5,256 nucleotides of DNA, taken from the NCBI GenBank assembly GCA_022360105.1, contig JAKSDL010000148.1:1-5256 (forward strand), in the 5' to 3' direction. Below are positions 1 to 5,256 of the stretch, one piece after another. The stretch comes from Pseudomonadota bacterium. GTDB lineage: Bacteria; SAR324; XYD2-FULL-50-16; JAHJRI01. The translations under genes and the position numbers were made by a program. Below the pieces are notes generated by a model. The model saw only the letters and a list, made by a program, of their open reading frames with translations. It was not told the origin of the DNA and did no database searches. Within the stretch, counting starts at the first letter, position 1. Each line of letters opens with the position of its first letter.

Positions 1-815
1 AAACTAAGTTTAAACAGATCCCTATCCGTATTTCTTTCAATGATGCCGGTATGCCGGTTTACATCGATTTCACCGTTCTCCAGCATAGCCGAGGTAAAAG
101 GGGTCGCTGTCAAATAAGTATCCCCATGATCATCTGTTTTATACCCGATTGCATTTCGTTCAACCGAGGAGATGATTTCCAAGGGCTCCCGTTGCAGGTC
201 TCCGAAATCACTGGGCATACATTCACTTTTGCTCCATTGTACAAGGCTGTCATTGCGGCCTCCCCCCGTCATGGATTCCCAGAAAACCTCATTTCTATCA
301 CTGCAGTGACTATGATGCATACGAAAACTATGCTCCAGTTCATGTCCTGCCTTACCAGCTATATGGTGTGGCTCGCTACCTTCGGCAGTAACAAATCCCC
401 CACCTGAAGCAGAAAAATACGAACCGGAAGTACCCCCTATCCCTGGAGTTTTGATATAGACGCTGGTTCTTGGCGTATCGGTTAATGTCGCATCCTCATA
501 CCTCTGTGGATCTGTTGTCACATTAACCGGAAAGGGACGGAATTTTTCCGCCACTCTTTCCCAAATATATTTAATCTCTTCCAGTTCCTGTTGATTAAAG
601 GCATTTGGATCATCGTCACCACCAACCATGGAGTAGGGCACTTCGCCGTCAAACATCAAATAGATGGTTTCAGAGGCTTCAGGATAACTGTTGTAAACGG
701 GAACACATAAATCTCCACAATCCTGTGCCGAGAGGGGATTTGAATAAAAACAGAGGATTATAGAAAAAATGAAGATAACTTTGAGTGTTGACCTGTCGAT
801 GATCGCTCGTACCAT
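1..815 (-). CDS. Secreted metzincin-like zinc metallopeptidase homologue, 3' end cut by window edge
   Basis: This frame stays open for 271 codons from ATG at 815 to the window edge, so the C-terminus is missing. Residues 1-30 form a signal peptide: basic start, hydrophobic stretch about 13-24, and a likely cleavage after LSA at residue 30, so the product is exported. The central part carries HELEHSFRMHH at residues 158-168, fitting HExxHxxxxxH with H158, H162 and H168 as zinc ligands and E159 as the catalytic base. The glycine normal at position 8 of the metzincin motif is Arg165. M182, within ESMTGGG, is a candidate Met-turn, followed by VQWSKSE (192-198). The upstream FRPFPVNVTT and downstream DDHGDT (228-233) and ERNTDRDLF segments match my memory of large secreted bacterial proteins with this core. 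Cysteines at 33 and 37 may form a disulfide. Substrate is unknown. The start is supported by a good ribosome binding site. The gene is divergent from the regulator gene. Coding status is confident; proteolytic activity is inferred. Confidence 0.85.
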   Translation of the reverse strand, partial: MVRAIIDRSTLKVIFIFSIILCFYSNPLSAQDCGDLCVPVYNSYPEASETIYLMFDGEVPYSMVGGDDDPNAFNQQELEEIKYIWERVAEKFRPFPVNVTTDPQRYEDATLTDTPRTSVYIKTPGIGGTSGSYFSASGGGFVTAEGSEPHHIAGKAGHELEHSFRMHHSHCSDRNEVFWESMTGGGRNDSLVQWSKSECMPSDFGDLQREPLEIISSVERNAIGYKTDDHGDTYLTATPFTSAMLENGEIDVNRHTGIIERNTDRDLFKLS

Positions 816-820
816 TTTTT

Positions 821-826
821 GCTCCT
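821..826 (-). promoter_or_regulatory. Ribosome binding site of the metallopeptidase-like gene
   Basis: On the minus strand the sequence reads AGGAGC, then five A residues, then ATG. This is a strong Shine-Dalgarno match at good spacing. It fixes the start at 815, which also places the signal peptide exactly at the N-terminus. Confidence 0.8.
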
Positions 827-875
827 GATAATATTCAAAAAAAATCATGTATCAGATAGGTTAATGTTTTGCTAA

Positions 876-1666: not shown

Positions 1667-1682
1667 TAGCATGAACCTTGCC
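1667..1682 (+). promoter_or_regulatory. Degenerate sigma-54 -24/-12-like element at the regulator start
   Basis: TAGCATGAACCTTGCC aligns with the consensus TGGCACGRNNNTTGCW at the correct spacing, but the -24 GG is AG. Initiation would be near 1693, only two bases before the start codon, which would leave almost no leader. It could be chance, a weak autoregulatory promoter, or a sigma-54 docking site without productive transcription. Confidence 0.2.
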
Positions 1683-1694
1683 TAAGAAAATCTC

Positions 1695-3452
1695 ATGGAT
1701 ATCCTTAAAAAGTTACCTGACTCTTGGCTCTCTATTCTTAATGCGATGCATAACGGAATGATCGTCATTGATCACCAGGGTACGATTGTCATTTGTAATC
1801 AAGCCGCCAAAAGGATTTTCGGCAACGAAAAAGGCCTGGAGCCAGGCCGTCACTTCTCAGAGGTACGCCCAACGACCTGGGTCGACTTGAAAACCATTCT
1901 CGAAACCGGGGAATCCCAAATCGGTAAAAAGATTGAACTACCCAAAGCCACCATTATCGTCAACCGCACGCCAATTATAGAAGATGGAAATGTTTGTGGT
2001 GTGATATCGGTTTTTCAGGATATATCCGAGTATGAGAACATTATCTCGGAGCTCCAGGGTTACAAAAAACTTCATCGCGATCTTGAAGCTATCATCGAAT
2101 CTTCCTATGACGGACTCTATATTACCGATGGCAAGGCGGACACCATCTTTGTCAACAACGCTTATGAGAGAATTACCGGGCTTTCCAGGGAAAACCTGGT
2201 GGGAAGAAATATGCGGGATTTGGTGAAAGAAAAAGTATTCGACCATTCAGTAACCCTAGATGTACTCAAAAGTAAAGAATCCGTTACCATCATGCAGCAA
2301 ATCATGAAGGACAAAACGGTTATCGTTACCGGAACCCCTGTATTTGAAGACTCTGGTGATATCGGTTTGGTAGTGACAAATGTCAGGGACATTACGGAAC
2401 TGAATTACTTGCGCTCCCAATTGCAGAAAAGCCGTCGTATTAGTTCCCGATATCAGGAAACCTTGGGCGAATGGCATAAGTTTGAGCATATTTTGGAAGA
2501 GATGGTGGTTAAAAGCACCTCCATGGTGCAAGTTATCCAGAAGGCAATAAAAGTAGCCAAAGTTGAAACGTCTGTTTTAATCACCGGCGAATCGGGGGTG
2601 GGAAAAAGCATGCTGGCTCGCATTATTCACCAAATGAGCTCCAGGAAGGAAAAACCGTTTGTTAAAATTAACTGCGGAGCTATCCCCGAATCCCTGGTCG
2701 AAAGCGAATTGTTCGGTTACGAGAAAGGTGCCTTTACCGGTGCCGCTGCAGAAGGAAAAGCAGGCTTGATAGAGATTGGTGATACCGGCACTGTTTTTCT
2801 GGATGAGATAGCAGAACTCTCCCCGGCGCTACAAGTCAAGCTGTTGGATATTATTGAAAACAAGTCGTTCGTTCATGTGGGAGGAATCAACCCGATCTCG
2901 GTTGATATTCGCATCATTGCCGCCACTAATAAAAACCTGGAAGAAATGATGGAAAAAGGTCGGTTCCGCAAAGATCTCTACTACCGCTTAAACGTGGTTC
3001 CCGTTCATGTGCCGCCTTTGCGTCAACGAACAGAGGATATACCGGCGCTGATCAGCAAAATGCTGATTAAGTTGAACAGCCAGGGTAATGAGACAAAAGA
3101 AATTGACCCCGATGTCGTGGAACGATTGCGATCCTATCAGTTTCCCGGAAACGTGCGGGAGCTGATTAATGTCATCGAGAGAATGTTCGTGATGAGTGAT
3201 GGCAAGCAAATCAGCTTTCTGGATCTGCCGGAAGATATCAAGGAATCTCCCAACCTTTTGACAAACCTGATAACGGAAGACAAATCCCTAAAAGAAGCGG
3301 TGAGCGCTCTGGAGATTCATATGATCAACGAAGCTTTTCGTCACCATCACAGCCTGGCTTCTGCAGCCAAATCGTTAAAAATCCATCCTACGACTTTATG
3401 GCGAAAAATGGATCGTTATGGGATCAAAATGAATATTGCAAAAACGCAATAA
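1695..3452 (+). CDS. Sigma-54-dependent transcriptional activator with two PAS domains (PAS-PAS-AAA+-HTH)
   Basis: This 585-residue cytoplasmic protein is a bacterial enhancer-binding protein that uses ATP to open sigma-54 RNA polymerase promoters. Two PAS domains, about residues 10-112 and 130-236, probably sense a small ligand, redox state or cofactor. No receiver domain is present, so it looks like a one-component sensor rather than a phosphorelay partner. A helical linker (about 237-265) leads to the AAA+ domain (about 270-505) with Walker A GESGVGKS (298-305), an intact sigma-54-contacting GAFTGA loop (345-350), Walker B VFLDE ending at D370-E371, sensor ATN (410-412) and the RFRKDLYYRLN segment (423-433) with the arginine fingers. 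The C-terminal helix-turn-helix (553-577) contains AAKSLKIHPTTLWRKMDRYGI. All catalytic motifs are intact. An in-frame stop at 1683-1685 rules out a longer start; ATG 1695 has only a weak ribosome binding site, AAGAAA. Gene position points to the downstream receptor gene as its target. The signal is unknown. Confidence 0.96.
   Translation: MDILKKLPDSWLSILNAMHNGMIVIDHQGTIVICNQAAKRIFGNEKGLEPGRHFSEVRPTTWVDLKTILETGESQIGKKIELPKATIIVNRTPIIEDGNVCGVISVFQDISEYENIISELQGYKKLHRDLEAIIESSYDGLYITDGKADTIFVNNAYERITGLSRENLVGRNMRDLVKEKVFDHSVTLDVLKSKESVTIMQQIMKDKTVIVTGTPVFEDSGDIGLVVTNVRDITELNYLRSQLQKSRRISSRYQETLGEWHKFEHILEEMVVKSTSMVQVIQKAIKVAKVETSVLITGESGVGKSMLARIIHQMSSRKEKPFVKINCGAIPESLVESELFGYEKGAFTGAAAEGKAGLIEIGDTGTVFLDEIAELSPALQVKLLDIIENKSFVHVGGINPISVDIRIIAATNKNLEEMMEKGRFRKDLYYRLNVVPVHVPPLRQRTEDIPALISKMLIKLNSQGNETKEIDPDVVERLRSYQFPGNVRELINVIERMFVMSDGKQISFLDLPEDIKESPNLLTNLITEDKSLKEAVSALEIHMINEAFRHHHSLASAAKSLKIHPTTLWRKMDRYGIKMNIAKTQ
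3435..3450. promoter_or_regulatory. Predicted activator-binding site 1 (ATTGC-N6-GCAAT)
   Basis: A perfect 5-bp dyad, ATTGC-AAAAAC-GCAAT, lies in the last codons of the activator gene and reaches the first base of its stop codon. It sits about 210 bases upstream of the predicted receptor transcription start, a normal distance for a sigma-54 upstream activating sequence. The six-base spacer is the same as in the known TyrR box, and the activator's helix-turn-helix is of a similar kind. Confidence 0.65.
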
Positions 3453-3455
3453 GTC

Positions 3456-3469
3456 TTGCAAAAATGCAA
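3456..3469. promoter_or_regulatory. Predicted activator-binding site 2 (TTGC-N6-GCAA)
   Basis: TTGCAAAAATGCAA repeats site 1 with the same arms, spacer length and A-rich spacer. The centres (3442.5 and 3462.5) are 20 bp apart, about two helical turns, so two activator dimers would bind the same face. It lies just after the activator's stop codon. Confidence 0.65.
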
Positions 3470-3527
3470 AATCGCTCTAATCTCCTATTTTTTAAAGTAA
3501 TTTACTAATCATCCCAGCCCAGCCCTC

Positions 3528-3540
3528 AATCAACTCCTTG
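3528..3540 (+). promoter_or_regulatory. IHF-like binding site
   Basis: AATCAACTCCTTG matches the IHF core consensus WATCAANNNNTTR at every defined position, with an AT-rich tract on its 5' side (about 3486-3510). It lies between the activator sites and the promoter, about 115-125 bases before the predicted start, where an IHF bend usually helps an activator touch sigma-54 polymerase. Whether this organism uses IHF or another bending protein cannot be seen here. Confidence 0.5.
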
Positions 3541-3551
3541 CATTTTTTCAA
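3538..3551 (-). promoter_or_regulatory. Predicted activator-binding site 3, degenerate
   Basis: On the minus strand this reads TTGAAAAAATGCAA, one base different from site 2 (TTGC to TTGA). Its centre is about 110 bases before the predicted transcription start. It overlaps the IHF-like core by three bases, so the two proteins might compete or cooperate. It is weaker than sites 1 and 2 and could be an A-tract coincidence. Confidence 0.4.
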
Positions 3552-3627
3552 TAACTTTTGGAGACAAAAAAGTCATCTCGCCAATAATATTTAAGTAAGA
3601 TCAGCATCTTACAGTATAAAAACCTAT

Positions 3628-3643
3628 CGGCATAACCATTGCA
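3628..3643 (+). promoter_or_regulatory. Sigma-54 (-24/-12) promoter of the receptor gene
   Basis: CGGCATAACCATTGCA aligns with TGGCACGRNNNTTGCW. GG (3629-3630) and GC (3641-3642) are separated by exactly ten bases, and both GGCA and TTGCA are intact. Transcription should start near 3654. The adjacent upstream gene encodes a sigma-54 activator with an intact GAFTGA motif, which strongly supports the call. Confidence 0.85.
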
Positions 3644-3653
3644 CTTAGGAAGC

Positions 3654-3919
3654 CACAATTTTTCACTTGCACTCTTACGCAGTTCAATTTTCCTGAACAG
3701 TTCAAAAATGTATTGCTTTTAAGAGATATTCTCCAATGGATTTGCTGTTTCCTGGCCAATCCGGTTGGTATTAGAGCAAGATTCCCAGTTGCGCATAGTC
3801 AGTTTGGTACCGGAAAATCTGCGTCTGCAAGCGATCTATTTTGCAGCACTGGCATGACTGACAAAAGCGAGCTGAAGGAAATTGATAGACCTGGTCCGGA
3901 ACTGAGATAGAGATATGAA
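3654..3919 (+). other. Long 5' leader of the receptor gene
   Basis: The predicted transcript has about 266 untranslated bases. I recognise no riboswitch class; the GGCAAACC and ACGCAAAGCC signatures of the c-di-GMP-I riboswitch are absent. Local pairing is possible at CCAA-N5-TTGG (about 3758-3770) and CTGCAA-N10-TTGCAG (3825-3846). An 18-codon frame, ATG 3854 to TAG 3910, ends nine bases before the receptor ATG in the same frame. It has no clear ribosome binding site and is not called as a gene. The same frame is open from 3620 to the TAG, but the protein it would encode does not look like a receptor N-terminus. Confidence 0.45.
3682..3704. repeat. Alternating half-sites GTTCA / TGAAC / GTTCA
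   Basis: GTTCA (3682-3686), TGAAC (3694-3698) and GTTCA (3700-3704) form two overlapping dyads that share the middle arm, with spacers of seven bases and one base. They lie about 30-50 bases into the predicted transcript. In RNA the 5' pair can form a hairpin; in DNA they could be a regulator site. Function unknown. Confidence 0.35.
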
Positions 3920-5256
3920 ATGATATTCAATAGGGTCAAAACGAAAATTACCATGGGTGCTTTGGGAATCATAATTTTTACCATGACCTTAACCACGATT
4001 ATTGTAGCGGTTATTATCATCAATCAAAACCGGGGAATTTCTTTCAAGTTGGTACAACAGTCCATGAATATCGTTCGTGACGATATTATCGGTGTTCAGG
4101 AAAAACTGCTGGAACAGTCACGACAGGCTGCAAAAGCCAATGAGATGGGAGCAAATCTGGAATTCATCTCTTCGATGAGCTACGAAATGGGTGCAGGCAT
4201 GGGTTTTGAGAGCATGCTCCAGGACATGGCTACCACCCTTTACCAAATCGAATTGACCGCCAATATTTGGAAAGCAGCATTTTATAAAAAAGACGGATCC
4301 CTGGGAGGATTTGCCTTGATTGACGAGAAAGCAAGTCTGATCGGGTTTCGACGTTCTACCGATTACCTGGTAGCCGAGTTAAAAGGCAATGAAAAAATCA
4401 CTTCGGAATCCTGGAAACCCAGGGAAACAATTTCCGGATTCAGCCAGACATATCCGGAAACGCTGCCCAACCAGGAATCGTTAGAGTTTTTCCCGGAAGG
4501 TGAGTTTCTCGCGCTTAAAGCTGCTGTTCCGATAACTGCTACTATTTTAGACAGCGAAACCCTGGAGGAGAAAATTCAGCAAGTCGGCGTTATGATCTGT
4601 TTTTATAAGTTTGAAACAGCTTTTGCGGAACGTATGTCCAGGATAACCGGCAACAAGATCGGTATTGTTCCGGTTGAAGGTCCCGTCATTGGAAATCTCG
4701 CAGGTTATGACAATCCGGAATCCGAACGATTCGATGAGGTCAAGCATCCGTGGAGCATTCACCAACAAAAGGTGATTCTTGATACGGTCGATCTAGAGGA
4801 GAGCAGCTTTTTCCAGGGCCTTCTACCCATATACTCCGGTAAGATGTACCTGGGATCGATCGTCGCGCTCTATTCCCAGGATGAAGCTTCGGCAAATGCC
4901 TGGTTCATTATCAAGGCTATGAGTCTGGTTTCTTTAGGCTGTATTATTATTTTGATTCCACTGGCCTATCTATTTTCAAAATCCTTTTCCGGCCCCCTGG
5001 AAAAGATGTCCCGCCTAATCTCCAACGTGGAACTCTCCGGCGATTTTTCACTCCGGGCCGATGTGTCCGGTAAGGATGAAATCGGTCAAACATCAGCGGC
5101 GTTTAACCATCTAATGGACTCCCTTCAGGAAGCAGTGAGCAAAATCAATACCGTGATGGGAGCTGTAGCCAGGGGGGACCTTTCCAACAAAGTTACGGGA
5201 GATTTTCAGGGAGACCTGCATGATCTCAAAACTAATGTCAATGAAACAATGGATGT
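3920..5256 (+). CDS. Transmembrane HAMP-containing receptor, probable methyl-accepting chemotaxis protein, 3' end cut by window edge
   Basis: The frame is open for 445 codons from ATG 3920 to the edge. TM1 spans about residues 12-34 and TM2 about 333-352. They enclose an extracytoplasmic segment of about 295 residues that starts helical (about 40-75) and is probably a Cache-type ligand domain, though I cannot assign the subtype. A HAMP domain follows (about 354-408) with the conserved Pro359 and the DEIG motif at 386-389. A second HAMP-like unit begins near 409 and includes ARGDLSNKVTGDFQGDL. This tandem arrangement is common in chemotaxis receptors, whose methylated signalling hairpin would lie beyond the edge. 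A histidine kinase or cyclase output cannot be excluded. The start is fixed by an in-frame TAG at 3908-3910; the ribosome binding site is weak (GAG at 3910-3912). It is probably transcribed from the -24/-12 promoter under control of the preceding activator. The ligand is unknown. Confidence 0.9.
   Translation, partial: MIFNRVKTKITMGALGIIIFTMTLTTIIVAVIIINQNRGISFKLVQQSMNIVRDDIIGVQEKLLEQSRQAAKANEMGANLEFISSMSYEMGAGMGFESMLQDMATTLYQIELTANIWKAAFYKKDGSLGGFALIDEKASLIGFRRSTDYLVAELKGNEKITSESWKPRETISGFSQTYPETLPNQESLEFFPEGEFLALKAAVPITATILDSETLEEKIQQVGVMICFYKFETAFAERMSRITGNKIGIVPVEGPVIGNLAGYDNPESERFDEVKHPWSIHQQKVILDTVDLEESSFFQGLLPIYSGKMYLGSIVALYSQDEASANAWFIIKAMSLVSLGCIIILIPLAYLFSKSFSGPLEKMSRLISNVELSGDFSLRADVSGKDEIGQTSAAFNHLMDSLQEAVSKINTVMGAVARGDLSNKVTGDFQGDLHDLKTNVNETMD

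Follow-up and report, generated by a model that had tools for sequence, protein, structure and literature searches.

Three palindromic sites at the 3' end of a sigma-54 activator gene form a probable enhancer for the encoded activator

We analysed a stretch of 5256 bp (the window), which carries on the plus strand a gene encoding a sigma-54 activator (bacterial enhancer-binding protein) of 585 aa (1695–3452), assigned from Pfam domains and translation motifs. The protein is of the PAS-AAA+-HTH type: PAS is present twice, the AAA+ domain is a sigma-54 interaction domain, and the helix-turn-helix (HTH) domain at the C-terminus is of the HTH_50/HTH_8 type. The AAA+ domain matched PF00158, as in enhancer-binding proteins, with E = 2.8e-68, and the HTH scored 33.4 bits with HTH_50 (cut-off 27) and 28.4 bits with HTH_8 (cut-off 22). 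GESGVGKS, GAFTGA and FLDE can be read directly in the translation, and the Walker, GAFTGA and HTH features are intact. Of 7999 scored candidates, 7201 were homologues of the activator with E ≤ 1e-60. Downstream, also on the plus strand, lies the 5' part of a predicted chemoreceptor gene that runs off the window (3920–5256; N-terminal 445 aa), identified by its HAMP domain, its methyl-accepting chemotaxis protein (MCP) homologues and its predicted structure. The ORF encodes a membrane helix, a Cache-like sensor domain and HAMP; its closest database homologues are 42–48% identical, and the homologues P0122–P0128, P0130 and P0131 have the MCP signalling domain PF00015. The predicted receptor model (mean pLDDT 75.6) matched Cache-type sensor domains in the PDB, with TM-scores of at most 0.37 by query length and up to 0.55 by target length among the matches listed; the sensor domain appears to resemble Cache domains, a likeness that assigns no ligand. 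On the other side of the activator, separated from it by 846 bp, a divergent gene (3–848, minus strand) encodes a protein that looks secreted by eye and contains HELEH, a metalloprotease-like HExxH motif; Pfam gave no match for it at E ≤ 0.001. A 9/12 sigma-54-like match, AGGCAAGGTTCATGCT (1668–1683, minus strand), lies just before the activator start and faces away from the activator.

The first-pass annotation had reported two TTGC-N6-GCAA palindromes with centres 20 bp apart, the first of them inside the activator coding sequence. Direct pattern matching found both as perfect, unstranded palindromes with that spacing; no other perfect match exists in the window. Site A1 (ATTGC-AAAAAC-GCAAT, 3435–3450, inner 14-mer 3436–3449) covers the last codons of the ORF, encoding the C-terminal I-A-K-T-Q, and its outer T is also the T of the stop codon, TAA (3450–3452). 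Site A2 (TTGC-AAAAAT-GCAA) lies at 3456–3469. When the window was shuffled 3000 times with dinucleotide composition kept, the mean was 0.098 sites; two or more sites anywhere occurred in 14 shuffles and a pair within 30 bp in none. When the local 500 bp were shuffled 5000 times, a pair within 30 bp appeared once. Matches with at most one mismatch were found four times in the window vs. 2.42 expected; a one-mismatch site at 869, which precedes the upstream divergent gene by 21 bp, was set aside as being at chance level. Scanning the window with a matrix built from 17 relatives, the window itself left out, gave 22.3 bits for A1, 19.6 bits for A2 and 13.6 bits for a third site, A3, the next match reaching 9.4 bits. 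A3 (TTGCATTTTTTCAA, 3538–3551, unstranded) has a single mismatch, which sits in its right arm, and its centre is 82 bp from that of A2; it is supported by the matrix and by conserved spacing. The two sites of the earlier operator proposal are thus real, but the array has three, and A3 had been missed. We also considered a hairpin or terminator reading of the region and discarded it: no terminator-like stem was found in 3200–4000 (0.7 expected in shuffles), and Rfam at the gathering threshold was empty across the window.

To follow the array in relatives of the activator, we seeded a search from the Desulfomonile tiedjei genome (G001, locus L028). Activator matches were obtained in 11 of 395 genomes of its phylum and, in searches of two orders, in 8 of 18 and 12 of 21 genomes; the sets overlap and together gave 23 loci. 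Relatives may have been missed, since three candidates were scored per genome. L096, L101 and L102 do not reach the stop codon and were left unscored. With spacings of 16–24 bp (A1–A2) and 74–87 bp (A2–A3) allowed, the three-site array recurred in 17 of the other 20 loci, whose activators are 52–63% identical to that of the window, as repeated palindromes in the manner of an upstream activating sequence (UAS). The relatives share kinship, and the 17 array loci are therefore not independent events. Counterparts of A1 were perfect in five relatives and had one mismatch in nine and two symmetric mismatches in three; those of A2 were perfect in 11 and those of A3 in 14, the remaining six and three having one mismatch. 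The array of L106 and L107 has no perfect site, with one-mismatch sites at all three positions. A1 and A2 are 19 bp apart in 15 of the 17 relatives (18 and 22 bp in the other two), and A2 and A3 are 78–82 bp apart. Relative to the stop codon, the A1 14-mer begins 6–19 bases upstream in 16 relatives and 30 bases downstream in the remaining one; A1 abuts the stop codon in 10 relatives, spans it in five and ends five bases short of it in one. Altogether, the 20 gene-end regions of 180 bp contained 31 perfect sites, spread over 15 loci, whereas 1000 shuffles gave 0.249 on average and never more than three. In 998 control tiles taken elsewhere in these loci, one perfect site was seen. The best site triple in each of the 18 loci including the window had 0–3 summed mismatches, compared with lowest values of 6–8 in 100 mononucleotide shuffles of each locus.

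The comparison also refined the motif. The arms noted at first as matching are kept in relatives and extend to about TTGCA-N4-TGCAA, but the A-rich spacer, which had been counted as part of the likeness, is not: the modal base reaches 37–61% at the four inner spacer positions in the relatives, and the A-rich spacer was rejected as a component of the signal. The array is absent in L114, L122 and L123, the only relatives at 52–53% identity. Their HTH reads HPATFWRKL, a stretch in which the array-bearing relatives have L or M at the position of F, and no importer follows them in their ORF lists, which were read without a family search. Class-level searches around G012 and G280 gave 1 of 22 and 1 of 55 genomes above threshold, in each case the centre itself. 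A scan based on the activator alignment covered at least 80 relatives with best segments 32–49% identical; these 772 kb contained 11 perfect sites and no pair 14–100 bp apart.

Downstream of the array, a GG-N10-GC element, CGGCATAACCATTGCA (3628–3643, plus strand), lies 77 bp from A3 and resembles a sigma-54 −24/−12 promoter. It matches 8 of the 12 scored consensus positions, vs. 9–12 in the 17 relatives, and it is one of five elements scoring at least 8 when both strands of the window are counted, the other four reaching 8 or 9. The label 'strong', given to this promoter in the first-pass annotation, is not supported on either count, because the score is below that of every relative and is equalled or exceeded at four other places in the window. 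Support for the element comes from its position and not from its score: the best GG-N10-GC element lies 64–78 bp from A3 in 16 of the 17 relatives and 147 bp from it in one. The distance from the promoter to the receptor start codon is 276 bp, above that in most relatives as judged by crude start calls. A possible integration host factor (IHF) site, GATCAGCATCTTA (3599–3611, plus strand; one mismatch to WATCARNNNNTTR), lies between A3 and the promoter. IHF-like sites with at most one mismatch were present in this interval in 6 of 18 loci vs. 1.95 expected by shuffling, and we did not retain this weak candidate.

All 17 arrays in the relatives precede genes of branched-chain-type ABC importers, with a Peripla_BP_6 substrate-binding protein in 16 loci and a BPD_transp_2 permease in L119; another gene comes first in two loci, encoding a metallo-beta-lactamase-superfamily protein (L105) and an AMP-binding enzyme (L115). 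Branched-chain-type importers are a likely target class. Orthologous receptor genes, which had been expected downstream, were not found: the best receptor relative in the 395 genomes, with at most four candidates scored per genome, was 32% identical, and an orthologous receptor could not serve as an anchor for footprinting. A chemoreceptor as the target of the array has so far been seen only in this window, and its control is therefore without comparative support. Since the same module precedes importer genes in the relatives, the window appears to hold the activator–enhancer module coupled to a receptor instead. We consider it likely that the receptor is the target of the activator in the source organism, a confidence that is lowered by a promoter score not above background.

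We then asked how specific the motif is. In 10 of the 19 genomes of the relatives, the pattern of two palindromes 52–80 bp apart has a single occurrence, which is at the activator locus; a reversed control pattern had no match in these 19 genomes. Of the nine genomes without the paired pattern, G286 and G413 have no array, and in the arrays of the other seven A2 or A3 is imperfect. In the 395-genome sample, the pattern was present in 5 of 11 genomes with a relative of the activator and in 18 of 384 without one, and its reversed control matched in six of the 395. The 18 relative-less genomes gave 18 loci, four of which have a distant activator, 34–48% identical in the matched stretch. Three of these (L146, L147 and L150, in G081, G045 and G098; L151 is the fourth) have the activator beside Nitro_FeMo-Co genes (assigned by Pfam for L147 and L150, and by a near-identical reading for L146) and carry arrays at the activators' own 3' ends, with three perfect sites each in L146 and L147 and two perfect sites and one imperfect site in L150. 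A close-pair pattern of the A1–A2 type was less specific, with matches in 17 of 395 genomes vs. 9 of 395 for its reversed control. Three of the 17 close-pair loci adjoin relatives of the activator and three adjoin distant activators (L175, L176 and L179); L178 has a 9/12 sigma-54 element 144 bp beyond the pair, and nothing was noticed by eye at four loci. Pfam was run for L178, L180, L186 and L187 among these loci. As similar pairs occur beside distant activators or with no activator within 1.5 kb, the code is not private to the activator family. It seems to be an operator code wider than the family and common to activators with quite different targets.

Two groups of close-pair loci are described here in their own right. 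L185–L188 (G152, G124, G059 and G021) have perfect pairs 21 bp apart before genes of NUBPL/Mrp-type ATPases. A sigma-54 element of 10–11/12 lies 107–108 bp beyond each pair and is followed, as seen by eye, by a G+C-rich hairpin and a T run, possibly a sigma-54-driven small RNA or leader. In L180 and L182 (G080 and G194), two perfect palindromes 21 bp apart are closely followed by a chemoreceptor gene, which Pfam identifies as dCache_1-HAMP in L180 and which looks similar by eye in L182; neither locus has a sigma-54 element scoring at least 9 or an adjoining activator match.

From these sequence comparisons we assign a probability of about 0.86 to the reading that A1–A3 are a three-dimer enhancer array of the adjacent PAS-AAA+-HTH sigma-54 activator. 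The original proposal of an operator for this activator is strongly supported by the comparison, in that the near-fixed array is present in 17 of 20 loci, absent in the group at 52–53% identity and unique in 10 of 19 genomes. Dimers of the C-terminal HTH would bind the TTGCA-N4-TGCAA-like sites, and three dimers on A1, A2 and A3 would suffice to seed one AAA+ hexamer. The hexamer would loop across roughly 77 bp from A3 to the −24 element and remodel sigma-54 polymerase at 3628–3643, leading to transcription of the downstream chemoreceptor gene, and the PAS domains may supply the signal input.

The array could instead be mainly autoregulatory, with bound activator blocking or attenuating elongation at the 3' end of its own gene, or with the array shaping the mRNA end. 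In favour of such a role, the stop codon is touched or spanned by A1 in the window and 15 of the 17 relatives, but A3 lies beyond the gene at a near-fixed distance from the −24/−12-like element, which suits an enhancer, and the search for a terminator-like stem in 3200–4000 was negative. We regard autoregulation as unlikely to be the main function; it could be an additional role beside that of enhancer. Less probable still is that a different regulator binds A1–A3 at these operons while the neighbouring activator uses other DNA. The pairs with no activator match in their 1.5-kb flanks (L185–L188, L180 and L182) would fit such a regulator; however, 17 of 20 loci have the array at the 3' end of the activator gene, the group at 52–53% identity lacks it, a −24/−12-like element follows it, and distant activators with a similar HTH have similar sites at the 3' ends of their genes. 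In A+T-rich DNA, chance would account for single one-mismatch palindromes, which are common, but not for the pair statistics, the conserved geometry and the uniqueness of the locus; conservation refutes this explanation, and we give it practically no weight.

The enhancer reading can be set beside known systems. As in the sigma-54 enhancer/UAS arrangement, described in PMC4641369, palindromes lie upstream of a −24/−12-like element, the activator is a GAFTGA-containing AAA+ protein and its gene is beside the predicted target; here, by contrast, the sites number three, keep a near-fixed spacing and begin at the stop codon of the activator gene itself. In the literature covered, the closest case is DVU2106 of Desulfovibrio vulgaris, a single-component sigma-54 activator with palindromes upstream of the neighbouring orp operons and IHF between the palindromic sites and the promoter (PMC3897727). 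The present system differs from it in its predicted target genes, which are the chemoreceptor ORF in the window and Peripla_BP_6 or BPD_transp_2 genes in the relatives rather than orp genes, and in the low identity of the activator. TTGC-N6-GCAA sites do occur beside the activators of L146, L147 and L150, which are 34–37% identical to that of the window and next to Nitro_FeMo-Co genes; we read these loci as orp-type. Activators with a TyrR-type HTH recognize palindromic boxes with half-sites 6 bp apart, and the window activator shares with them the HTH_50 domain and palindromic half-sites with 6-bp spacing; TyrR itself works with sigma-70, and its half-site sequence differs from the window operator. 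Sigma-54 activators of this kind are numerous in bacteria of this group, with 37 in D. vulgaris (PMC3897727), and many of them control processes still unknown (PMC4641369). For the present activator, the analysis yields a concrete and transferable binding motif and geometry.

The position of A1 leaves a mark on the protein. In frame, A1 reads [x]-Ala-x-x-Gln-stop, and we counted tails in the best 119 of the 7201 homologues, with the window's own protein left out. Tails ending in Gln were found in 68 of the 119, 67 of which end in A-x-x-Q; a further five end in A-x-x-H, eight have A-x-x-Q slightly inside the tail and 39 have neither. The background frequency of A-x-x-Q is 0.3% per position; because the homologues share kinship, these counts are support and not an independent test. 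The two spacer-encoded residues between A and Q vary, and 44 distinct ten-residue tails were present. In L111, L113 and L121, ATGCA-N4-TGCAT in the DNA corresponds to the A-x-x-H tail. We tentatively suggest, as an idea that is possible but not the likelier one, that selection on A1 fixes the Ala-x-x-Gln end of the activator and welds activator and enhancer into one module that can be re-coupled to a new gene, such as a chemoreceptor for an importer, possibly with roadblock-type autoregulation at the activator 3' end. Such a 3' end would exemplify cis-regulatory DNA that constrains the end of a coding sequence. The mechanism itself is classical; the operator motif, the array geometry and the C-terminal imprint were not found in the open literature searched, which included passages of PMC4641369, PMC3897727 and PMC6299228. 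Where only protein sequences exist, A-x-x-Q at the C-terminus may serve as a cheap protein-level marker of the operator. One homologue, P0114, for which the protein sequence was read, has a tail, ...IAKTQQLAKTQQ, that reads like two in-frame copies of the operator within the coding sequence.
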